This document shows positions 2,478 through 55,730 of a stretch of 60,539 bases of DNA, piece after piece. The notes under the pieces are model-generated. The model had not been told where the DNA came from. It did not search any database and saw nothing but the letters and a program-made list of their open reading frames with translations. Positions within the stretch are counted from its first letter, which is position 1. The number at the start of each line of letters is the position of its first letter. The translations under genes were made by a program, and so were the position numbers. Source of the DNA: an uncultured Rhodospirillales bacterium. GTDB lineage: Bacteria; Pseudomonadota; Alphaproteobacteria; Acetobacterales; Acetobacteraceae. The stretch is from assembly GCA_903843125.1 (NCBI GenBank), contig CAIMOR010000462.1, forward strand, positions 1 to 60,539, read 5' to 3'.

Positions 2478-3664
2478 TGTCGCTGCCGCTCGCCGGATTG
2501 ACCGTCCTTGACCTGACGCAGATCTACAACGGCCCCTATGCCGCCTTCCTGCTGGCGCAGGCGGGGGCGGAGGTGGTGAAGGTGGAGCCGCCGGACGGTG
2601 AGCATCTGCGGCGGCGCGCGGCGGGCGGGTTTGCGCTGCCGTTTGCGTCGTTGAATGGCGGCAAGCGGTCGGTACGGCTCGACCTCAAGCAGCCGCGCGG
2701 GCGGGATGTGCTGCGCGAGCTGGCGATGCACGCGGACGTGTTGGTGGAGAACTTCGCACCAGGCGTGATGGACCGGTTGGGGCTGGGCGCGGCGGCGTTG
2801 CAGGCATTGAACCCGCGCCTGGTCTATGCCTGTTCCAGCGGGTTCGGCAGCGAAGGGCCGTACCGCGACTACCCCGCCATGGACCTGACGGTGCAGGCCA
2901 TGGCCGGCTACATGGGCATCACCGGCTTTGCCGATACGCCGCCGACCAAGTGCGGCCCGGCGGTGGCCGATTTCCTCGCCGGCGCGCATCTGTACGGCGC
3001 CGTCGTCACCGCGCTGCTGGAACGCGAACGCACGGGCGTGGCGCGGCGGGTCGAGGTCTCGATGCTGGAGACCGCGTATTTCCCGCTGCTGTCGGCGCTC
3101 AGCATGGTGAAGCCGGGGCAGGATGCGGACAGCGTGCGCGTCGGCAACCGGCACAGCGGCCTCTCGCTGGCGCCCTACAGCGTGTACCCCTGCGCGGACG
3201 GCCACATTGCCATCATCACCAGCAACGAGGCGCAGTGGCAGGGCCTCTGCCGCGCGCTTGCAATGACGGAGCTGCTGGACGACCCGCGCAGCCGCACGGT
3301 GAAGGACCGCTGCGCCAACATGGACTGGATGGACGCAACGGTGGCCGAGCGTACCATCCACGTCACCAAGCAGGCGCTGTTCGAGAAGCTGCTGGCGGAG
3401 CGCGTGCCGTGCGGGCCGGTGCGCACGCTGACGGAGGTGATGCACGACCCGCACCTCCACGCCACCGGCGGGCTGCGTTGGCAGGAGCATCCGGAATTCG
3501 GCCGGTTGCCGATCCCCTCGGGGCCGCTGCATTTCTCCGGCGTGGAACCGCCGCAGGCGCCGCCGACCGGGCCGCTGGGCGCCGAGACGCGCGACGTGCT
3601 GCGCGAGAAGCTGGGGCTTGATGACGCCGCGATGGATGCGCTGGCGGCGGATGGGGTGATCTAG
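2477..3664 (+). CDS. CaiB/BaiF family (class III) CoA-transferase
   Basis: LAGLTVLDLTQIYNGPYAAFLLAQAGAEVVKVEPPDGE N-terminus, NGGKRSVRLDLK. Confidence 0.93.
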   Translation: MSLPLAGLTVLDLTQIYNGPYAAFLLAQAGAEVVKVEPPDGEHLRRRAAGGFALPFASLNGGKRSVRLDLKQPRGRDVLRELAMHADVLVENFAPGVMDRLGLGAAALQALNPRLVYACSSGFGSEGPYRDYPAMDLTVQAMAGYMGITGFADTPPTKCGPAVADFLAGAHLYGAVVTALLERERTGVARRVEVSMLETAYFPLLSALSMVKPGQDADSVRVGNRHSGLSLAPYSVYPCADGHIAIITSNEAQWQGLCRALAMTELLDDPRSRTVKDRCANMDWMDATVAERTIHVTKQALFEKLLAERVPCGPVRTLTEVMHDPHLHATGGLRWQEHPEFGRLPIPSGPLHFSGVEPPQAPPTGPLGAETRDVLREKLGLDDAAMDALAADGVI

Positions 3665-4626
3665 TCTGCGGTGATCCTCGCCGCCGTCACCACCTGCTGC
3701 ATCGCCACCTGTTCGTCGCGGATCTTCTGCTGGAAGGCCTCGGGCGTCAGCGCGCCAGGCGTCGCCGCCTCCTGCGCGAGGATGCTGGTGAAGCCAGGTT
3801 CGGCCAGGGCGGAATTGGTGGCGTTGTTCAACACGGCGCGCACGTCCCGCGGAATGCCCTGCGGCGCGAACAACCCCCACCAGATGCCGCCGACATAATC
3901 CACGCCCTGCTCGCGCGCGGTCGGCGCTGCCGGCGTGCCGGGCGGCTGGGTTTCGCCGGCATGGGCCAGCACCTTCAGCAGGTTGCCGCGCAGCTGGCCG
4001 CCGGTGCTGGCGAAGGTGGTGAACATCACATCCACGCGCCCGGCCACCAGATCCGTCAGCGCGCCAGCGGTGCCCCGGTAGGGAATGTGCTGCATGCTCA
4101 CGCCGGCCTTCAGGCAGAACAGTTCCGTCATCAGATGCACCGTGCTGCCCGGGCCGCTGCTGGCATAGGTGACCTCACCGGGCTTGGCACGGGCTTCCGC
4201 CACCATGGCGCGCAGGCTGGCGAAGCGCGTGGTGACCGGCACGAAGGCGGCCAGCGGCGCGCTGGCGAGCAGCGCGATGCCGTCCAGGTCACGGGCTGCA
4301 TCGAAGGCGATGCGCTGCACCGGCGCGATGGCGGCGACTGAGGAGGTGGTGACGAGAAGCGTATGGCCATCGGGCGCTGCCTGGGCCGCGTATTGCACCC
4401 CCACTGCGCTTCCGGCGCCAGGTCGGTTCTCGATGACGAAGGGCTGGCCGAAATGCGCCTGCAGGCGCTCCGCCAGCGGCCGCGCCATGGCGTCGTTGGA
4501 GCCGCCGGGGGTGAAGGGCACCACGATGCGCACCGGGCGCGACGGCCAAGGGGAGCCTGCGCCCTGCGCCCGCGCCATCCCTGGCGCCAGCAGCGCCGCC
4601 GCCATCACTCCACGCCGAGCCAGCAT
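3661..4626 (-). CDS. Bug/TctC family tripartite tricarboxylate transporter substrate-binding protein
   Basis: Signal peptide then WPSRPVRIVVPFTPGGSNDAMARPLAERLQAHFGQPFVIENRPGAGSAVG; start set at internal Met 4626. Confidence 0.9.
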   Translation of the reverse strand: MLARRGVMAAALLAPGMARAQGAGSPWPSRPVRIVVPFTPGGSNDAMARPLAERLQAHFGQPFVIENRPGAGSAVGVQYAAQAAPDGHTLLVTTSSVAAIAPVQRIAFDAARDLDGIALLASAPLAAFVPVTTRFASLRAMVAEARAKPGEVTYASSGPGSTVHLMTELFCLKAGVSMQHIPYRGTAGALTDLVAGRVDVMFTTFASTGGQLRGNLLKVLAHAGETQPPGTPAAPTAREQGVDYVGGIWWGLFAPQGIPRDVRAVLNNATNSALAEPGFTSILAQEAATPGALTPEAFQQKIRDEQVAMQQVVTAARITAD

Positions 4627-4715
4627 GTGGTTTCCTCCGTTCCGCGCAGCCTGCACGTGGACGCCACGCGCGGCAACTGGCAGCATCCGGCGGAACAGCA
4701 GGGGGAACGCCGCGC

Positions 4716-5446
<731 letters not shown>

Positions 5447-5450
<4 letters not shown>

Positions 5451-6091
5451 GCGGAACGGAAAAGGGCTGGAACCGGCAGCAGATGGCCGACCGTCTCTCG
5501 GAGAAATTCGAGGATGGCTGGTTGGTCAACCTCGGCGTCGGCATCCCGACGCTGTGCAGCAATACCGATCTCGGCGGCCGCGAGATCACCTACCACTCCG
5601 AGAACGGGCTGATCGGCTATGGTCCGGTGCTGCCGGCGGGGCAGGAGGACCTGCACCTGGTCAATGCCGGTGGGCAGAACGTCTCGCTGAAGCCGGACAG
5701 CGTGACGGTGAACCACGCCGACAGCTTCGCCATCATCCGCAGCGGGCGCATCGATGTGACCGTGATGGGCGCCTATGAGGTGGCGGCCAATGGCGACTTC
5801 GCCAACTGGAAGGTGGCCGGGCAGAAGGGCGGCGGCATCGGCGGCGCCATGGACCTGGCGGCCTGCGCCAAGCGGGTCTTCATCATCCTGGAGCACGTGA
5901 CCCGCAAGGGCGCGCCGCGCCTGGTGCCGGCGTGCAGCCTGCCGGTGACGGCACGCGGCGTGGTAACGCTGGTGGCGACCAACTACGGCCTGTTCGCCCC
6001 CACCGGCCATGGTTTCCGCGTGGTGGAGCTGGCGCCGGGGATGAGCTTCGAGGAAGTCCGCGCCGCCACCGGCGCACCGCTGGAGAGCTGA
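5447..6091 (+). CDS. 3-oxoacid CoA-transferase subunit B
   Basis: GWLVNLGVGIPTL and SENGLIGYGP motifs; 4-nt overlap with subunit A. Confidence 0.9.
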
Positions 6092-6094
6092 GAC

Positions 6095-6694
6095 ATGCAC
6101 ATCGACTACTACGCCTCATTGAACTCGCCCTGGACCTACATGGGCGGCGCGCGGGTCGAGGCGCTGGCGGCGAAGTACCACGCCACGCTGCGGATCTGGC
6201 CGGTGGATTTCGGCACCATCTTCGCCGGCTCCGGCGGGCTGCCGCTGCCCAAGCGCAGCCCGCAGCGCCAGGCCTACCGCTTGCAGGAATTGGCGCGCTG
6301 GAAGGCGGAACTGGGCCTGCCCTTCCACATCCAGCCCAAGCACTTCCCGACCAGCGAGGCGCTGTCCTCCGCCTGCGTCATCGCGCTGCGGGAGACGGCC
6401 GGCGATGCGCCGGCCATCCGCCTGGCGCAGCGCGTGCTGAAGGCGCTGTGGGAGGAGGAGAAGAACCCCGGCGACGAGGCCACGCTGGCCGCGCTGGTCG
6501 GCGATTGCGGGCTGGACGCGCAGGCGGTGCTGGCACTCGGCCGCGACCCCCGCTGGGGCGAGATGCGCGAGCGCGACACCGCTGCCGCCCTGGCGCGCGG
6601 CGTCTTCGGCGCGCCGAGCTATGTCATCGGCGAAGACATCTTCTGGGGCCAAGACCGGCTGATGTTCGTCGAGAAGCGGCTGGCGCGGGGCTGA
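6095..6694 (+). CDS. 2-hydroxychromene-2-carboxylate isomerase/DsbA-family protein
   Basis: IDYYASLNSPWTYMGGARVEALAAKYHA; GVFGAPSYVIGEDIFWGQDRL. Confidence 0.85.
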   Translation: MHIDYYASLNSPWTYMGGARVEALAAKYHATLRIWPVDFGTIFAGSGGLPLPKRSPQRQAYRLQELARWKAELGLPFHIQPKHFPTSEALSSACVIALRETAGDAPAIRLAQRVLKALWEEEKNPGDEATLAALVGDCGLDAQAVLALGRDPRWGEMRERDTAAALARGVFGAPSYVIGEDIFWGQDRLMFVEKRLARG

Positions 6695-6765
6695 CGCCAT
6701 GGCCCCGGCAAAGGTAGCGAAAACAACATTTGACTCGGAGTCGCGGCCCGGCTGACGCTTGGGTC

Positions 6766-7563
6766 ATGGATACTGCCCCATCGGGCTTCGCCGTCGCCCA
6801 GGTTGCCTGCCCGGTGCTGGAAAGCGTCGCGGTGGGCCAGCGCTACCACCGCCTGGTGGTGGCGGCGCCGGGGCTGGCCGCGCGGACCAGGCCGGGCCAA
6901 TTCTGCCACCTGCTGTGCCGGGACGCCGGTGGCAGCGGCCCCTTCCTGCGTCGGCCGATGAGCGTGTGGCGCATCGGTGCCGATGGCACGCTGGGGTTCC
7001 TGCTGCACGTGAAGGGGCGCGGCACCGCGGCGCTGGCGCGGCTGCGTCCCGGCGATGCGCTGGACGTGGTCGGCCCGCTCGGCGTCGGCTTTGCGCTGCC
7101 GCCGACGGCGCGGCGCATTCTCGTACTGGCACGCGGCGTCGGGCTGGCGACGCTGGCGCCGCTGGTCGGCAGCGGCCCGCAGGTGCACGCGGTGCTCTCG
7201 GCCCGCGCACCCGGGGACCTGATGGCCGACGAGTTCGGCGCCAGCAGTTACGACGCGGTGTTCGACAGCGACGGCAGTTCGGCGCCCGCCGCGGTGGAAG
7301 CGCTGCTGCGCCGGCGCTTCGAGACCGAGCGACCGGACGCGGTGTTCACCTGCGGCTCCAACCGGTTGTTCCTGGTGCTGCAGCGGCTGGCGGCGGAATA
7401 CGGCATCCCCGGCCAGGTGGCGCTGGAACAGCAGATGGGCTGCGGCCTCGGCATGTGCTTCTGCTGCGTGCGCGACATCCGCGACGAGGCCGGCCACATC
7501 TCGCATCAGCGGGTTTGCCGCGAAGGCCCGGTCTTCGACCTGCAGCAGGCATTGGCATGGTGA
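6766..7563 (+). CDS. pyrK: dihydroorotate dehydrogenase electron transfer subunit (PyrK-like)
   Basis: FAD/NAD reductase fold plus C-terminal 2Fe-2S motif CGLGMCFCCVRD...RVC; immediately upstream of pyrD. Longer in-frame start possible at 6730. Confidence 0.82.
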   Translation: MDTAPSGFAVAQVACPVLESVAVGQRYHRLVVAAPGLAARTRPGQFCHLLCRDAGGSGPFLRRPMSVWRIGADGTLGFLLHVKGRGTAALARLRPGDALDVVGPLGVGFALPPTARRILVLARGVGLATLAPLVGSGPQVHAVLSARAPGDLMADEFGASSYDAVFDSDGSSAPAAVEALLRRRFETERPDAVFTCGSNRLFLVLQRLAAEYGIPGQVALEQQMGCGLGMCFCCVRDIRDEAGHISHQRVCREGPVFDLQQALAW

Positions 7564-8483
7564 GGCTGGCGACGCGCATTGGCCGCCTGACGCTGGCCAA
7601 CCCGGTGATGCCGGCCAGCGGCACCTTTGGCCCGGAGCTGGCCGAGGTGATGGACCTGGACCGGCTCGGCGCGCTGGTGACGAAGTCGGTCACGCCGGAA
7701 GCGCGGCTGGGCAATGCCCTGCCGCGCCTGGCCGAGACCGAGAACGGGCTGCTGAACAGCATCGGCATTCCCGGCAAGGGGCTGGACGCCTTCGTCGCCC
7801 AGGCCATGCCGGAATGGCGCCGGTTCCGCGCGCCGCTGGTGGTCAGCCTCTCGGCGCCGAGCGTGGCCGAGTTCGCCCACGCCGCGGCGGTGCTGGCGGC
7901 GACGCCGGGGGTGGCGGCGATTGAAGCGAACATCTCCTGCCCGAACCTGGAGGAGGATGGCCGCGCCTTCGCCATGCTGCCGGAAACCGCCGCTGCCGCC
8001 GTGGCCGCGGTGCGGGCGGCCTGCGCGCTGCCGCTCTGGGTCAAGCTCTCGCCCAACACCGCGGATATCGCCGCCGTGGCGCGGGCCTGCGAGGCGGCGG
8101 GCGCCGAGGCGCTGGTGGTGGCCAATACCATCCTCGGCCTGGCGATCGATATCGAGACCGCGCGGCCGAAGCTGGGCGCCGGCATGGGCGGGCTCAGCGG
8201 CCCGGCGTTCAAGCCCATCGCGCTGCGCCTGGTCTGGCAATGCGCGCAGGCGGTGGGCATTCCCATCATCGGCGTCGGCGGCATTTCCACCGCCGAGGAT
8301 GCGGTGGAATTCCTGATGGCTGGCGCGTCCGCGGTGCAGGTCGGCACCGCCAGCTTCGTGCAGCCGACCGCGATGCTGGACGTTCTCGACGGCCTGGTGG
8401 CGTTCTGCACGCGGCGCGGCATCGGCGATGTGGCGCAACTGGTCGGCGCGGCACTGCCGCGGGAGAGGTTGGCGGCGGAATGA
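7557..8483 (+). CDS. pyrD: dihydroorotate dehydrogenase, class 1B type
   Basis: ANPVMPASGTFGPELAEVMDLDRLGALVTKSVTPEARLGN; EANISCPNLEEDGR; GVGGISTAEDAVEFLMAGASAVQVGTA. Confidence 0.87.
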   Translation: MVRLATRIGRLTLANPVMPASGTFGPELAEVMDLDRLGALVTKSVTPEARLGNALPRLAETENGLLNSIGIPGKGLDAFVAQAMPEWRRFRAPLVVSLSAPSVAEFAHAAAVLAATPGVAAIEANISCPNLEEDGRAFAMLPETAAAAVAAVRAACALPLWVKLSPNTADIAAVARACEAAGAEALVVANTILGLAIDIETARPKLGAGMGGLSGPAFKPIALRLVWQCAQAVGIPIIGVGGISTAEDAVEFLMAGASAVQVGTASFVQPTAMLDVLDGLVAFCTRRGIGDVAQLVGAALPRERLAAE

Positions 8484-9736
8484 ACGTATTGTCCCAGCGT
8501 ATCGCGGTACCGGTTGACGAAACGGCGCTGGCGGCACGGCTGCTGGAAGGTTTCCGCGCGCTGTCGCTGGACCCGCTGGGCGGAGTGACGCGCCCGGCCT
8601 GGTCGGCGCTGGAGACCGCCTGCCACGCGCTATGGGCCGAGGCCGGCGAAGCGCAGGGGCTGGCGCGTCACGTGGATGCCGTGGGCAATACCTGGCTCGC
8701 CCCGCCCGGGCTGGGCGAGGCGCCGGCGATGGCGACGGGGTCCCACCTGGACAGCGTGCCGCAGGGCGGCAATTTCGACGGCGCGGCCGGCACCGTCGCC
8801 GCACTGCTCTGCGCCTTGCGGGCGGCGCGGGACGGCCTGCCGCTGCGGGCGGTGGCGCTGCGCGGCGAGGAATCGCCCTGGTTCGGCGCGCCCTATGTCG
8901 GCACCCGCGCCGCCTTCGGTGCGCTGGACGCCGCCGAGCTGGCAACGCCACGCCGCGACAGCGGGCTGACCCTGGCCCAACACATTGCCGAGCAGGGCGG
9001 CGACCCGATGGCCGCCGGCGCCGGCGTGCCACTGCATGAGATCGCGCTGACAACGATGTTCTGGGAGCTGCATATCGAGCAGGGGCCGGTGCTGCTGGAC
9101 CGCGACCTGCCGGCCGCCGCGGTCAGCGCCGTGCGCGGCCATATCCGCTTCCCCCGGGCCCGCTGCGTGGGCGAAGCCGGGCATTCCGGCGTGGTACCGC
9201 GCCACCTGCGGCGAGACCCGGCCATGGCGGTGGCGGAATTGCTGATGGATCTGGACGGCCTCTGGGCGCGCAGCCTGCAGGAGGGCAACGACCTGGTGGT
9301 GACCGCCGGGCTGGTGATGACCGAGGCCGAGGCCAGCACCGCCACGCGCATACCCGGCGAGGTGCGATTCGCGCTGGATATCCGCAGCGCGAGCGCCGAG
9401 GTGCTGGACGGCATGCGCGGCTTCCTCGCCCGGCGCTGCGCCGATATCGGCCGTTCGCGCGGCGTGGAATTCGTGCTGGGCACGCGGGTGGAGGCGGCAC
9501 CGATCAGGCTGGATGCCGCCGGGCATGACGCGATCCAAGCGGCGCTGGCCAGGCCGTACAGCACCGTCTCCGGCGCCGGGCACGACGCCGCCGAGTTTGC
9601 CCGGCGTGGCGTGCCGGCGGCCATGGTCTTCGTCCGCAACGCCCATGGCAGCCACAACCCGCGCGAGGCGATGGAGGTCGGTGACCTGATGGCGGGCGTG
9701 GAGGCGATGTACGCCGCGATCCAGGCTCGCGCCTGA
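8480..9736 (+). CDS. M20-family Zn-dependent hydrolase (N-carbamoyl amino acid hydrolase / allantoate amidohydrolase type)
   Basis: GSHLDSVPQGGNFDGAAGTVAAL, RGEESPWFGAPYVGTRA, LHIEQGPVL motifs; overlaps pyrD stop. Confidence 0.87.
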   Translation: MNVLSQRIAVPVDETALAARLLEGFRALSLDPLGGVTRPAWSALETACHALWAEAGEAQGLARHVDAVGNTWLAPPGLGEAPAMATGSHLDSVPQGGNFDGAAGTVAALLCALRAARDGLPLRAVALRGEESPWFGAPYVGTRAAFGALDAAELATPRRDSGLTLAQHIAEQGGDPMAAGAGVPLHEIALTTMFWELHIEQGPVLLDRDLPAAAVSAVRGHIRFPRARCVGEAGHSGVVPRHLRRDPAMAVAELLMDLDGLWARSLQEGNDLVVTAGLVMTEAEASTATRIPGEVRFALDIRSASAEVLDGMRGFLARRCADIGRSRGVEFVLGTRVEAAPIRLDAAGHDAIQAALARPYSTVSGAGHDAAEFARRGVPAAMVFVRNAHGSHNPREAMEVGDLMAGVEAMYAAIQARA

Positions 9737-45977: not shown

Positions 45978-48900
45978 ATGGCGGTGAACAGTAGTATATT
46001 CGTGGAGAATACCGAACTCTCGGTTGATGAGACGGCAGGTCAGGTAGTTGAGACTGTCGAGCGTACGGGGTCGCTGAGCGGCGACGTTAGCATCACCTAC
46101 AATGTCACCGGGGATACGGCCACCGCTGGGTTGGACTTCAAGGGCGGCTTCGGCACCGTGGTGATGCCGGATGGCGCCAGCGAGGTATCGATCCCGATCC
46201 AGATCTACGACGACACGATCCCCGAGCCGACCGAGACCTTCGCGTTCTCCATCGTCGACGTGTCGAACGGCACGCTCTGGGCGCCACGGACCTCGCGGAT
46301 CAGTATCCTCGACAATGAGACACCGGCCCCGCCGCCGGCGCCGGAGCCGCCGCTGACCTCGAACTACGTGGTCAACCCGGTGACGATCGCGAGCGGGCTG
46401 GACCAGCCGATCCGCATGGTGCCGTCGCCGATCGACGCCAACAAGATGTACGTCGCGGAAAAGTCCGGTGTGATCCTGCTGACCGACATCAACACCGGCC
46501 AGCACAGCACGGTGCTGGATATCAGCAGCATGGTGAACGACTACGGCGACCGCGGCCTGCTCAGCATCGCGCTTCATCCGGACTTCGCCAACAACCCGTA
46601 TATCTACGCCTATGTGGTGGTGGACCCGCCGGATGGGGCCGGGCTGACCGCGAATGCCGGGCCGGATGGCGGCGGCAACCGGTATGCGCAACTGCTGCGG
46701 TTCACGGCCGACGCCGCAACCAACTTCACCACCATCGTGCCGGGCAGCGAGAAGGTGCTGCTGGGCGGCGCCGGGCAGTCGCTGAACGATATCAGCGGCG
46801 GTGGCTGGCTCGACTTCACCGAACCAGGCCAGTCCGGGCAGCCTGCCTCGGACCACGTCATCAACAGCGCCGCGGCCACCCCGCCCGTGGTGGTGAACGG
46901 GATCAAGCAGGACTACCTGAAGGTCGACAGTTCCTCCCATGCCGGGGGCGCGCTGGCGTTCGGGCCGGATGGGGCGCTGTATGTCTCCACCGGGGATGGC
47001 ACCTCCTTCGATTTCGCCGACCCGCGCACGGTGGACGTGCAGTCGCTGGACAGCCTTTCGGGCAAGATCCTGCGGATCGACCCGATGACCGGGCAGGGCC
47101 TGGCGACCAATCCCTTCGTCACCGACGGGCTCTCGCTGGACAGCGATCGGGCCAAGGTCTTCCAGTACGGATTGCGCAACCCCTTCAGCATCACCTTCGA
47201 CCAGGAAGGCAAGCTGATGATCACCGATACCGGCTGGAACAGCTGGGAGGAGCTGAACAACGGCGGGCCCGGGGCGAATTTCGGCTGGCCGTTCTACGAA
47301 GGGCAGGACGGCGGGGTCTCGCGTCCGGCGCCGGGCTACCAGGACACGCCGGCGGCGCAGGCCTTCTACACCGCGGTGGCGAACGGCACGGTTAAGGTGA
47401 TGGCGCCGTTCCGCAGCTTCTCCCACGACAGCGCCGACCCGGGCTTCCAGGTGCAGGCGGTGACCGGCAGCGAGGTCGTCTACAACGGCACGGTCTACCC
47501 GGCCAGCTTCGACAATCAGTGGATCTTCGAGGATTTCGCCGAGGGGCACATCTTCGCGGTCAACGTCGACGACCGCACCCAGGTGCAATACCTGTACAGC
47601 GCGCCCAGCGGCTATGCGCCGGTGGATTTCGTGCAGGCGGCGAATGGCTACATCTACGCGGCCGACATCGCGCTGGGGCAGATCGAGCGGCTCGATATCA
47701 GTGCTGCGCCAGCTGGCGGCAGCGGTGGCGGCTTTCCGCCGGCGACGGTGACGTTGGGCAGCGGCGCGCATGCGCTGGTGCTGAGCATCAGCCAGGACGC
47801 CTACCGAGGCAGCGCGCAATATTCCATCGCGGTGGATGGCGTGGCGGTGGGTGCGACGCAGACCGCCTCGGCGCTGCATGGCAGCGGGCAGGACGACCAG
47901 GTGACCGTGCTCGGCAACTGGGGCGCCGGCAGCCACACCGTGACGGTCACCTTCCTGAATGACGCCTATGGCGGTTCGGCAGCGGCGGACCGCAACCTGT
48001 ATGTCGATGGCATCACCTACGACGGCGCCGCGCTGGCGAATGCGACGGCGGCGTTGATGGGGCCGGTGAGCCAGGGCTTCGGCTTCACCGGCAGCGCGCC
48101 GCAGGTGCCGGCGCCGGCGAACATCTCGCTCGGCAGCGGCGCCCATGCGCTGGTGCTGCAGCTCAGCCAGGACGCCTACCAGGGCGCGGCGCAGTACACC
48201 GTCAGCGTGGATGGCGTGCAGCAGGGTGGCACGCAATCCGCGGTGGCGTTGCATGGCAGCGGCCAGGAGGACACGGTGACGGTGCACGGCGACTGGGGGG
48301 CCGGCACCCACACGGTGACGGTGACCTTCCTGAACGACGCCTATGGCGGCACGCCCGACACCGACCGCAACCTCTACGTGGATGGCGTCAGCTACGACGG
48401 CGCGGCGCTGGCGAATGGCACGGCGGCGCTGCTCTCGGCCGGTGCGCAGGGCTTCGGCTTCAGTGGCGGCAGCGCGGCACCGTCGGCGAGCCTGACGCTG
48501 GGCAGTGGCGCCCATGCGCTGGTCCTGAGCATCAGCCAGGATGCCTGGCAGGGCAGCGCGCAGTACACCGTCAGCGTCGATGGCGTGCAGGTGGGCGGCA
48601 CGCAAACCGCTGCCGCCTTGCACGGCAGCGGCCAGGACGACAGTGTGACGGTCAAGGGTGACTGGGCCGCCGGCGCGCATGTGGTCGCCATCAGCTTCCT
48701 GAACGATGCCTATGGCGGCACGCCGGCGACCGATCGCAACCTGTACGTGGATGGCATCACCGCCGACGGCACGGCGGTTGCGGGTGGCACTGCGGCGCTG
48801 CTCTCGGCGGGAACGCAGCCCTTCGGCTTCAGCATCGCCGGTGGTTCGGGCGGCGGCACGGGCGGCGGGGCGGGGAGCGGCACGGTGATCGGCACCGGTC

Positions 48901-49583
48901 CGCATGCCCTGGCGCTGCGGATCAGCCAGGACGCCTACCAGGGCAATGCGCAGTACACGCTCAGCGTGGACGGCGTGCAGATGGGCGGGACGCAGACGGC
49001 AACGTCGCTGCATGGCTCCGGCAGCAGCGACGTGGTTACGCTGCGGGGTGATTGGGGCGCCGGACCACATGCGCTGACCGTGAACTTCCTGAACGACCTG
49101 TACGACGGCACGCCGAGCACCGACCGCAACCTGTACGTCGACGGCGCCAGCTACGACGGCGTGGCGCTGCCCGGCGCGGCGAAGCCACTGCTTTCGGCCG
49201 GGCCGCAGGCGGTGACGTTCAGCGGCGGCGGCACCAGCACCACGCTTGGCAGCGGGCCGCACAGCCTGGTGCTGCAGCTGAGCCAGGATGCCTGGCAGGG
49301 CAGCGCGCAGTACACGGTGAAGGTGGACAGCACGCAGCTGGGCGGCACGCTGACCGCGGCGGCGTTGCACGGCTTCGGCCAGGAGGACCAGTTGACCCTG
49401 CAGGGCAACTGGGCCACCGGGCCGCATACGGTCACCGTCTCCTTCCTGAACGACGCCTACAACAACAGCCCCGACACCGACCGCAACCTTTATGTCGACG
49501 GCCTCAGCTACGATGGCGTGGCGCAGGCCGGCGGCAGCGCCGCGCTGCTCAGCACCGGGGCGCACGACTTTGCCTTCGCCTGA
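45978..49583 (+). CDS. Calx-beta domain + PQQ-dependent sugar dehydrogenase-like domain + five CBM60-like xylan-binding repeats
   Basis: FVENTELSVDETAGQVVETVERTGSLSGDVSITYNV...DDTIPEPTETFAFSI (Calx-beta); VTIASGLDQPIRMVPSPIDANKMYVAEKSG...GDRGLLSIALHPDFANNPYIY (GSDH); five LGSGAHALVLxxSQDAYQGxAQYTVSVDG...FLNDAYGGTPxTDRNLYVDG repeats. Confidence 0.85.
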   Translation: MAVNSSIFVENTELSVDETAGQVVETVERTGSLSGDVSITYNVTGDTATAGLDFKGGFGTVVMPDGASEVSIPIQIYDDTIPEPTETFAFSIVDVSNGTLWAPRTSRISILDNETPAPPPAPEPPLTSNYVVNPVTIASGLDQPIRMVPSPIDANKMYVAEKSGVILLTDINTGQHSTVLDISSMVNDYGDRGLLSIALHPDFANNPYIYAYVVVDPPDGAGLTANAGPDGGGNRYAQLLRFTADAATNFTTIVPGSEKVLLGGAGQSLNDISGGGWLDFTEPGQSGQPASDHVINSAAATPPVVVNGIKQDYLKVDSSSHAGGALAFGPDGALYVSTGDGTSFDFADPRTVDVQSLDSLSGKILRIDPMTGQGLATNPFVTDGLSLDSDRAKVFQYGLRNPFSITFDQEGKLMITDTGWNSWEELNNGGPGANFGWPFYEGQDGGVSRPAPGYQDTPAAQAFYTAVANGTVKVMAPFRSFSHDSADPGFQVQAVTGSEVVYNGTVYPASFDNQWIFEDFAEGHIFAVNVDDRTQVQYLYSAPSGYAPVDFVQAANGYIYAADIALGQIERLDISAAPAGGSGGGFPPATVTLGSGAHALVLSISQDAYRGSAQYSIAVDGVAVGATQTASALHGSGQDDQVTVLGNWGAGSHTVTVTFLNDAYGGSAAADRNLYVDGITYDGAALANATAALMGPVSQGFGFTGSAPQVPAPANISLGSGAHALVLQLSQDAYQGAAQYTVSVDGVQQGGTQSAVALHGSGQEDTVTVHGDWGAGTHTVTVTFLNDAYGGTPDTDRNLYVDGVSYDGAALANGTAALLSAGAQGFGFSGGSAAPSASLTLGSGAHALVLSISQDAWQGSAQYTVSVDGVQVGGTQTAAALHGSGQDDSVTVKGDWAAGAHVVAISFLNDAYGGTPATDRNLYVDGITADGTAVAGGTAALLSAGTQPFGFSIAGGSGGGTGGGAGSGTVIGTGPHALALRISQDAYQGNAQYTLSVDGVQMGGTQTATSLHGSGSSDVVTLRGDWGAGPHALTVNFLNDLYDGTPSTDRNLYVDGASYDGVALPGAAKPLLSAGPQAVTFSGGGTSTTLGSGPHSLVLQLSQDAWQGSAQYTVKVDSTQLGGTLTAAALHGFGQEDQLTLQGNWATGPHTVTVSFLNDAYNNSPDTDRNLYVDGLSYDGVAQAGGSAALLSTGAHDFAFA
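47754..49580 (+). repeat. Five tandem in-frame CBM60-like domain repeats of about 356-390 bp
   Basis: Repeat starts (LGSGAHAL-type) at about 47754, 48129, 48498, 48888, 49244. Confidence 0.9.
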
Positions 49584-53021: not shown

Positions 53022-53567
53022 TCAGCCGCGCGCCTCAGCCAGCGTGCGCAGCAGGCGGTCGAAGCGGTCTCCGGCCAGGGAGACGGTGTCGAGCAGCATG
53101 TCGTCCAACTCGTCGGCCTGGGCCTTGTCACCGGCCTGCAGCGTGACCTTGCCGCCACTGGCCTTGCGCTGCTGCGCGGTGCGCAGGCGGTCCGCCAGGA
53201 ACAGCGCGATGGCGCGGTAGAAGCGCATGCCGAAGCCGGCATCCTCGGCGATCTTCTCGTTCAGCGCGTCCTTCGGCACCTCCAGCACCAGGGCCGGACC
53301 TTCGGCCAGCACGGTGGCGGAGGGCGGCGCGCTGTCGACGAAGCTCATCTCGCCCAGCATTTCCCCCTGCTGCAGCAAGGCGACGCGGCCGATGCCGGCG
53401 ACCTCCACGGCCAGGTTGCCCTCGATCAGGATGAACAGGTAGGGGCTGCGCTCGTCCTGGCGGATGATCGCCTCGCCGGGGGCGACGCGGCGCTTGCTGC
53501 CGACGCGGGACAGCCACTGCACGTCCAGGTCGTCCAACTGGGCGAGCATGTAGAGTACCTTGCGCAT
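53022..53567 (-). CDS. cyclic nucleotide-binding (cNMP) domain protein
   Basis: VAPGEAIIRQDERSPYLFILIEGNLAVEVAGIGRVALLQQGEMLGEMSFVDSAPPSATVLAEGPALVLEVPKDAL; gagggg SD upstream of ATG at 53567. Confidence 0.88.
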   Translation of the reverse strand: MRKVLYMLAQLDDLDVQWLSRVGSKRRVAPGEAIIRQDERSPYLFILIEGNLAVEVAGIGRVALLQQGEMLGEMSFVDSAPPSATVLAEGPALVLEVPKDALNEKIAEDAGFGMRFYRAIALFLADRLRTAQQRKASGGKVTLQAGDKAQADELDDMLLDTVSLAGDRFDRLLRTLAEARG

Positions 53568-53577
53568 GGATGTCCCC

Positions 53578-54125
53578 TCAGGCCATTCGGCGGCGGGCCA
53601 GGTTCTGGAACAGGCCCGGCCTTTTGGATAATTCGCTGACGCTGCCTTCCTGCACGAGGCGGCCTCGGTCAAGCACCAGCACGCGGTCGACGCGTTTGAT
53701 GGTGGAGAGCCGATGGGCGATGATGACCGCAACCCCTCACGGCCGCGCAACTGCACCATCAGGCGGGCCAGGCGCTCTCGGGTCAGCGTGATGACCTTGC
53801 CATGGGCGCGGCGGCGCCCCTCGGTATTGGTGGCCATCGCGCTGTCCTGCTCGGCGATGTCGGCCATGCGGCGCGCGAGCTCGGCGCGCCGTTCCTCGGC
53901 CGCGGCCTCGGCGTTCTTCAGCTTCAGCTCGGCCTCGTCCTGGGTCAGGATGGATCCGAAGAAGCCCCCGGCCAGGAAGGCGGCCAGCACGATGCCGAGG
54001 CCGAGGGCGACCAGCCAGCCCTGCACGTTGGCGACGGTGACGAACTCGTCGAGTTGCTCCGGTGAAGCCAGCTTGTCGAGCGCGGTCGGGCGGTAGAGGC
54101 CGGGGGCCTCGGCGGGGGCGCTCAT
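53578..54125 (-). pseudogene. collapsed NHLM-type HlyD secretion protein / ABC exporter remnant
   Basis: In-frame N-terminus MSAPAEAPGLYRPTALDKLASPEQLDEFVTVANVQGWLVALGLGIVLAAFLAGGFFGSI (NHLM HlyD-like) joined to coiled-coil fragment, then after a reading-frame change the minus strand encodes VAVIIAHRLSTIKRVDRVLVLDRGRLVQEGSVSELSKRPGLFQNLARRRMA*, an ABC ATPase H-loop/C-terminus. Confidence 0.75.
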
Positions 54126-54199
54126 GCAGGGGCGCCCGGCATGCTGGAGCACCGCGCACCCTGTCGGGCGCATTTCGTGCCCTATAACTGATTGAAATC

Positions 54200-54245
54200 A
54201 GAGCAATATCCGTTCTGATAATTCCACCGGAACGGGTATTGCTCT
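54200..54245. repeat. 16-bp near-perfect palindrome abutting the ATP-grasp stop codon
   Basis: agagcaatatccgttc-N14-gaacgggtattgctct, one mismatch. Confidence 0.7.
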
Positions 54246-55356
54246 AGCGGCCGGCGGTGCGGGCCAGGGCATCCCGCACGTACATCGCCTTCATGCGGTG
54301 ATAGAACTCCTGCGGGTCCATCGCGCCGCTGTCTATCACGACATTGGCGAAGAACTGATACTCGAAGAACACGAGTTGCCGCCGCAGCGCCTGGTAGTCG
54401 TACGGCCGCGCCAGCAGGTCCATCTCCGTGGCGCCCAGGTCGACGCAGAAGAAACTGAACTCGCGCCCGCATTGCGCGGCCATCTCGGCCCGCACCCGCG
54501 TCATGAAGCGATCCAGGTTGGTGGTCTCGGTCGGGGTCAACTCGACGTATTCGGCGCCCTGGGCCATGTTGCCGCTGAGCGCCACGAACAGCTTGTCGCC
54601 GGCGGGCACCGCCTCGAAGCTGCGGTGGCGGTAGCGGTCACGCAGCGCGGCCAGGCCGCTTGGCCCGAGCTCCGCCTTGCGGTCCATGACCTGCAGGTAC
54701 AACGGCCGGCCATCCGAGACGAAGAACGGGCAGCGCTTGTCGTAGACGCTGCGCCACTGCCGCCCGGCCAGGTCGGTGTAGACCATGTAGCGGAAGTCCC
54801 GCACGATCGGCAGGCTGCGCTGCACCAGGTAGTCCTGCGGCGTGAACAGCAGGTGCTCCAGCACCTCCTCCACCTTGGTGGTGCGCAGCAGCCCCTTGCC
54901 CTTGGAGCCGTCCTTCGGCTTCAGCAGCCAGGCGCCGGTACCCAGCTTCAGCAGCTTCTCGCGCAGCGCCAGCGGGTCGAACGGCGCCGCCGGGACATGG
55001 ATGGTCTCCGGCGCGTTGTAGCCAAGGCCGCGCATGACGCCGACGAAGGCCACCTTGTCGTTCAGGTGGGCCACCCGCGGGTCCGACCACAGGTCCAGCA
55101 CGCGGGCGAAGCGCAGCATCAGCCGCAGGGTCAGCGGGTGCCAGTCGCGCCAGTTGGTGGAACCGGTGCCGGCCTCGGCCCGGGCAACCTGGCGGCTGCC
55201 GAGCCGGCGCATGGCGGCGACCAGGGCATCGACCTCGGCTTCGTTCACCGGTGCCCGCGGCAGCAGATGGGCGTGCTGATGCGGGGTCAGCAGCGGGCCG
55301 GCCGCGGTCATGGCCGGCAGCCGGTGCGGGGCGTGGCTATCCGCGGCATCGGGCAC
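54244..55356 (-). CDS. ATP-grasp enzyme, putative RiPP-modifying ligase
   Basis: GTGAWLLKPKDGSKGKGLLRTTKVEEVLEHLLFTPQDYLVQRSLPIVRDFRYMVYTDLAGRQWRSVYDKR ATP-grasp signature; GTG start at 55356 or ATG at 55311; directly downstream of the precursor-like peptide. Confidence 0.72.
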   Translation of the reverse strand: MPDAADSHAPHRLPAMTAAGPLLTPHQHAHLLPRAPVNEAEVDALVAAMRRLGSRQVARAEAGTGSTNWRDWHPLTLRLMLRFARVLDLWSDPRVAHLNDKVAFVGVMRGLGYNAPETIHVPAAPFDPLALREKLLKLGTGAWLLKPKDGSKGKGLLRTTKVEEVLEHLLFTPQDYLVQRSLPIVRDFRYMVYTDLAGRQWRSVYDKRCPFFVSDGRPLYLQVMDRKAELGPSGLAALRDRYRHRSFEAVPAGDKLFVALSGNMAQGAEYVELTPTETTNLDRFMTRVRAEMAAQCGREFSFFCVDLGATEMDLLARPYDYQALRRQLVFFEYQFFANVVIDSGAMDPQEFYHRMKAMYVRDALARTAGR

Positions 55357-55434: not shown

Positions 55435-55626
55435 CTATTCGAAGATGCTGGTGGGGTCGAAAGCCGGCACGATGGGCTGGTACTCGACCTGCTCGGCTTT
55501 GTCGTTGGTGGTCTTCCTGCCGCCGGAAACCTGATCCAGGATGCTGTCGTCGATCTGGTCGAGTTCATTCTCGGACTTGATCTTGCGGATCTGGGTGTTG
55601 TCTTCGGTGGTGCTGGCGTCGGACAT
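55435..55626 (-). CDS. 63-aa putative RiPP/bacteriocin precursor with double-glycine leader
   Basis: MSDASTTEDNTQIRKIKSENELDQIDDSILDQVSGG|RKTTNDKAEQVEYQPIVPAFDPTSIFE; good SD gaggag 6 nt upstream; same strand, upstream of ATP-grasp. Confidence 0.75.
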   Translation of the reverse strand: MSDASTTEDNTQIRKIKSENELDQIDDSILDQVSGGRKTTNDKAEQVEYQPIVPAFDPTSIFE

Positions 55627-55730
55627 GCTGCTCTCCTCAAGCCGGGCGGCTGGCATTCGCTGGGGCTGCAGGGCGGTCATGATGGCACGTTCCGGGACGG
55701 CAGATGCGGGTGATGCGGCGCACCCGGCCC

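Follow-up and report, generated by a model that had tools for sequence, protein, structure and literature searches.

An orphan ATP-grasp ligase paired with a double-glycine precursor peptide in a genus of Acetobacteraceae

A 60,539-nucleotide stretch of DNA from an uncultured Rhodospirillales bacterium of the family Acetobacteraceae (assembly GCA_903843125.1, contig CAIMOR010000462.1), referred to here as the window, carries a gene for an orphan ATP-grasp ligase of 355 residues (positions 54244 to 55311, minus strand) beside a gene for a 63-residue precursor peptide with a double-glycine leader (55435 to 55626, minus strand). These two genes form a small, previously uncatalogued system that resembles those of ribosomally synthesized and posttranslationally modified peptides (RiPPs), and in our samples it is confined to one genus. 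The ligase is most likely a leader-guided RiPP maturase. We tentatively read the locus as a RiPP-type system in which this maturase may form a macrolactone at the precursor tail.

Organization and conservation of the locus

A sequence-only reading of the window had described a 370-residue ATP-grasp protein partnered with a GG-leader peptide. The minus-strand open reading frame (ORF) at 54244 to 55356, with both of the ATP-grasp motifs quoted in that reading, is present and encodes 370 residues if read from a GTG at 55356. The 15 residues added by this start show no conservation in orthologs. Because the orthologs begin at an equivalent ATG, the ATG at 55311 is most likely the better start, which would give an enzyme of 355 residues, and ligase residue numbers count from this position. 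The frame is free of stops and includes K131 in WLLKPKDGSKGKG, R174 in DFRYM, D291 in FCVDL, and E317-Y-Q319 in FFEYQ.

The precursor gene (MSDASTTEDNTQIRKIKSENELDQIDDSILDQVSGG/RKTTNDKAEQVEYQPIVPAFDPTSIFE) starts at an ATG at 55626, lies 123 bases upstream of the ligase, and has a Shine-Dalgarno sequence, GAGGAG (55633 to 55638, minus strand), whose GGAG recurs at the equivalent position of each of the four orthologs. It encodes a 36-residue leader ending in SGG (55519 to 55626, minus strand) and a predicted core of 27 residues (55438 to 55518, minus strand), which consists of a variable linker and a tail, P-x-F-D-P-T-[ST]-[IM]-x-[ED]-COOH, conserved to the last residue. Each of the five precursors has this motif flush with its C terminus and ends in an acidic residue. 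The leader had no match to the NHLP (nitrile-hydratase) or Nif11 types in profile libraries. No RNA structure was detected between precursor and ligase (z-score, 0.16), no promoter-like site was found at the locus, and two terminator-like sites were no more than expected by chance.

Every genome with the ligase, five in total, also has the precursor beside it, in the same order. The other four are Acetobacteraceae assemblies (L002 to L005) whose ligases share 80 to 84% protein identity with the window enzyme. At each of these loci the peptide is encoded just upstream of the ligase, and directly 3' of the ligase are genes for an NHLM-type HlyD protein, a C39-peptidase ATP-binding cassette (ABC) transporter, a second NHLM ABC transporter (ABC2), and a cyclic-nucleotide-binding-like protein; for the L005 transporters, ORF calling gave no clean separate frames. 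All four components of NHLM/NHLP bacteriocin export (TIGR03794, TIGR03796, TIGR03797, and TIGR03896) are thus represented. The identity of the L002 exporter is established by scores above the curated cutoffs of TIGR03794, TIGR03796, and TIGR03797 and by a clear match to the C39 domain (PF03412). The system differs from NHLM/NHLP export in that the leader is of neither the nitrile-hydratase nor the Nif11 type and in that the window exporter is mostly deleted. The partnership proposed in the sequence-only reading is borne out by this fixed gene order and by the C39/NHLM exporter that comes next in the four intact loci. Upstream, all four orthologous loci also share genes for a 425-residue protein and a glutathione S-transferase, and downstream, L003 and L004 share one for a metallo-beta-lactamase fold protein.

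Of the six genomes sampled from the genus, five have the pair; the sixth, in which it was not found, is 89% complete. No further ligase ortholog was detected in samples of 398 family, 385 class, and 399 phylum genomes, where the larger searches scored the best five candidates per genome and very distant members could escape. No further peptide ortholog was detected in the 398-genome family sample, across which neither gene was seen without the other. A housekeeping ligase was rejected as an explanation, since the gene is limited to one genus in these samples and always adjoins the peptide. A plasmid or viral origin was also rejected, as there was no match in plasmids or IMG/VR.

Across the five genomes, the ligase had a ratio of nonsynonymous to synonymous divergence (dN/dS) of about 0.2 to 0.3 (dN, 0.08 to 0.17; dS, 0.36 to 0.56), indicating purifying selection and, together with the protein identity of 80 to 84%, a gene well beyond chance; this and the following estimates come from few sites and only five sequences. 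Leader residues 9 to 36 are nearly invariant (dN, 0 to 0.05, versus dS, 0.2 to 0.8), whereas the core as a whole (dN, 0.19 to 0.48, versus dS, 0.17 to 0.92) changes freely save for its C-terminal motif. An invariant leader followed by a drifting core with a fixed tail is the usual RiPP signature and suggests a peptide modified under leader guidance. Because the core drifts everywhere except in the C-terminal motif, the tail is the likely modification site.

Family and predicted structure of the ligase

The ligase had no significant match among Pfam, NCBIfam, PHROG, or PDB sequences. Matches to the Pfam models AARP2CN, ATPgrasp_ST, and TTL were below the cutoff and were treated as hints only. 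Profile searches placed the ligase in none of the RimK, glutathione synthase, and MvdC/D families, in agreement with the sequence-only reading. The ligase did align with an Acetobacteraceae ATP-grasp family whose members start with FEFWP (hhalign E value, 1.8e-7; 25% identity over 217 columns), and in a small hmmsearch panel this family gave E values of 4e-11 to 5e-5 and up to 32.6 bits. In the same panel, RimK reached 0.02 at best and TIGR04187-like graspetide synthetases reached 0.18 at best. In turn, the FEFWP family has matches to the cyanophycin synthetase model (1e-7) and a RimK model, below the cutoffs of those models. These profile comparisons suggest that the ligase is tied to a cyanophycin-synthetase/RimK-like branch of ATP-grasp enzymes and lies outside the graspetide-synthetase families tested.

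The FEFWP family, which is apparently unnamed, shares the ATP-grasp core motifs KP..G..G.G, DGR, and PAG(D/E)..L...GN..G with the window ligase. It differs in having a normal E-x-N, another N terminus, a DedA-like neighbor where examined, and no peptide partner seen. The family (L008 to L024) is widespread in Acetobacteraceae and scores above the cutoff of no specific model in Pfam or NCBIfam. Its genes adjoin a gene for a DedA-like membrane protein in the two loci examined (L013 and L022).

An AlphaFold model of the ligase built with five close sequences was poor (mean predicted local distance difference test score [pLDDT], 57) and fairly confident around residues 80 to 165; a rerun with another ortholog placed first was worse (pLDDT, 52.7). 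Foldseek matched the first model to D-Ala-D-Ala ligases, PurP, and the graspetide ligases PsnB and MdnC with a probability of 1.00, and tubulin tyrosine ligase was also among the ATP-grasp structures matched, at TM-scores that are low and allow no choice between ATP-grasp families. The model and the profile comparison with the cyanophycin-synthetase/RimK-like family (E values of about 1e-7 to 1e-11) support an ATP-grasp fold, as the sequence-only reading had supposed.

That reading had also called both ends of the protein divergent and had named the N-terminal region as a candidate for leader recognition. About 75 residues at the N terminus had no PDB relative in sequence searches. Few parts of the enzyme are as well conserved as residues 41 to 80 (33 of 40 invariant). 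The N terminus, inspected for a PqqD-like winged-helix RiPP recognition element, is all-helical in the low-confidence AlphaFold model. This conservation fits a role in leader recognition without proving one. At the other end, the stretch LVFFEYQFFANVV is probably an ordinary last metal-binding strand and a normal end of an ATP-grasp domain, contrary to what had been claimed. The last metal-binding pair of ATP-grasp enzymes is normally E-x-N. The position of E317-Y-Q319 (54355 to 54363, minus strand) after the conserved FCVD291 strand suggests that it is this pair, changed to E-x-Q; the FEFWP-family alignment stops before the E-x-Q strand, and the equivalence is judged by position. E317-Y-Q319 is identical in all five orthologs.

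Proposed chemistry and competing readings

ATP-grasp chemistry activates a carboxylate as an acyl phosphate. In the conserved precursor tail, the possible acceptors are the side chains of Asp and the last Glu/Asp and the terminal carboxylate, and the possible donors are Thr and Ser/Thr. We tentatively propose that the ligase recognizes the invariant leader of the 63-residue precursor and, with ATP, would turn a carboxylate in F-D-P-T-[ST]-x-x-[ED] into an acyl phosphate. A Thr/Ser hydroxyl of the same motif may then attack, with T59 or S60 paired with E63, or with D57, as candidate sites; these are positions in the ortholog alignment, and the window's own residues after a gap are one lower. 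The predicted product is a small, graspetide-like lactone ring at the tail. In the related genomes, the C39 domain of the NHLM exporter would cut the modified peptide after Gly-Gly, and secretion would follow.

Graspetides (microviridin, plesiocin, and others) likewise have an ATP-grasp ligase adjoining a leader-core precursor and, as in the window precursor tail, Thr/Ser and Asp/Glu within a conserved core motif. Graspetide chemistry uses Thr/Ser donors and Asp/Glu acceptors, and several graspetide groups often co-occur with NHLM transporters (PMC13097080). An internal lactone is favored because of this precedent, including that of the groups with NHLM exporters. The window ligase differs from graspetide synthetases in its E-x-Q and in its N-terminal 75 or so residues without a known relative, and its profile fits neither a TIGR04187-like synthetase nor an NCBIfam ATP-grasp RiPP model. 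Three observations weigh against a lactone. Comparison with two alphaproteobacterial representatives of the graspetide synthetases (L063 and L064) gave 0.9 and -2.8 bits in hmmsearch and a probability of 0.2% in hhalign. By inspection, the leader is without the proline-based Phhx(1,2)h motif, which occurs in about half of graspetide precursors and so is not strictly defining (PMC8939145). Finally, the acidic last residue and the motif flush with the C terminus would suit C-terminal ligation equally well.

Such a leader-guided C-terminal ligase, which would attach a free amino acid or an amine to the terminal carboxylate of the [ED]-COOH tail, is a somewhat doubtful alternative. Parallels are RimK, which acts on ribosomal protein S6, tubulin tyrosine ligase, which acts on tubulin, and cyanophycin synthetase, which adds to its growing chain. 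The ancestry of the enzyme and the flush C terminus of its presumed substrate favor amino acid addition: the nearest relatives are a family that scores with cyanophycin synthetase and RimK models, there is a weak, nonsignificant profile likeness to a tubulin-ligase-like protein and to Pfam TTL, and the motif of every precursor ends at its very last, acidic residue. However, C-terminal ligation would have no obvious need for the invariant internal D-P-T-[ST], and macrolactonization is slightly favored over it. PEARLs also extend the C terminus of a ribosomal peptide, but they are not ATP-grasp enzymes and depend on aminoacyl-tRNA (PMC11962472).

It is unlikely that the ligase acts on a small molecule or another protein while the neighboring peptide is exported unmodified, as a bacteriocin-like or signaling peptide. 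The DedA-like, nonpeptide neighbors of the FEFWP relatives in the two loci examined would agree with such a substrate, but the constant pairing in five of five genomes, with neither gene found alone in the family sample, and the position of the ligase gene between precursor and exporter at every locus argue against it. In the literature surveyed, RiPP ATP-grasp maturases are graspetide synthetases. If our reading of the ligase as a maturase is true, its recruitment from the cyanophycin/RimK-like branch would mean that ATP-grasp peptide modification arose there independently, and graspetide searches that start from known synthetases would probably miss such a maturase. A system of one enzyme and one peptide is easily tested in Escherichia coli.

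Exporter loss in the window and other exporters of the host genome

The ORF downstream of the ligase, absent from the sequence-only reading, is the wreck of the exporter. What remains of the NHLM HlyD gene is a 5' part (53727 to 54124, minus strand), which has an internal deletion of about 141 bp near 53930 to 53947, located at a 16-base imperfect repeat. A second deletion, of 5.68 kb, joins HlyD, in a different reading frame, to the 3' end of the NHLM ABC2 transporter gene (53578 to 53727, minus strand), with the junction at about 53727. The NHLM-export-associated cyclic-nucleotide-binding-like protein of 181 residues (53022 to 53567, minus strand; TIGR03896 and PF00027) is intact. Positions 53022 to 54173 form a single frame of 383 residues, made up of the HlyD start, the out-of-frame ABC tail, and the intact cyclic-nucleotide-like protein, and an automatic annotator could call this deletion-born fusion one gene. 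The deletion could be recent or, alternatively, could be an assembly error.

With local export destroyed, the host locus might be decaying, its precursor and ligase without present function. The two deletions, the larger of which joins genes out of frame, point that way, yet we consider decay very unlikely. The precursor, the ligase, and the cyclic-nucleotide-like protein are all intact, and the ligase of the window lineage shows a dN of 0.09 to 0.10 to L002 to L004, hardly above the 0.08 to 0.10 seen among intact loci. A second close NHLM exporter, found only in the host genome, also argues against decay.

Two more NHLM exporters are encoded in the host genome, on contigs C563 and C10. Compared with the L002 transporters, identities are 77% and 68% for the C563 exporter and 60% and 50% for the C10 exporter. 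The four sister genomes are without a second close copy of the C563-type HlyD; their best match (72%) is the exporter of their own ligase locus, and the sixth genome, from which the pair was not recovered, offers nothing nearer than a 52% relative. By this comparison, of the six genomes of the genus, only the one that has lost its local exporter has a second close one. Export of the modified peptide in the host may thus be served in trans, with the C563 exporter perhaps replacing the lost one; C563, a short contig, could instead be contamination (estimated at 1.44% for the assembly). The host genome, with a broken and an additional exporter, would then be a natural case of exporter replacement. 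No second precursor was recognized near the C563 or C10 exporter.

The C563 locus (L041) encodes HlyD, C39-ABC, ABC2, and a cyclic-nucleotide-like protein, with no recognizable precursor or maturase adjoining. On C10 (L042, positions 2701 to 8980), the third, more distant NHLM exporter lies beside an outer-membrane-efflux-like (TolC-like) gene, and an HlyD related to that of this exporter is also present in G300, the genome without a detected peptide-ligase pair. Elsewhere in the window, positions 45978 to 49583 encode a large protein with five similar C-terminal repeats of about 110 residues (SGAHALVLQLSQDA...), which we take to resemble parts of Calx-beta and sugar-dehydrogenase proteins.
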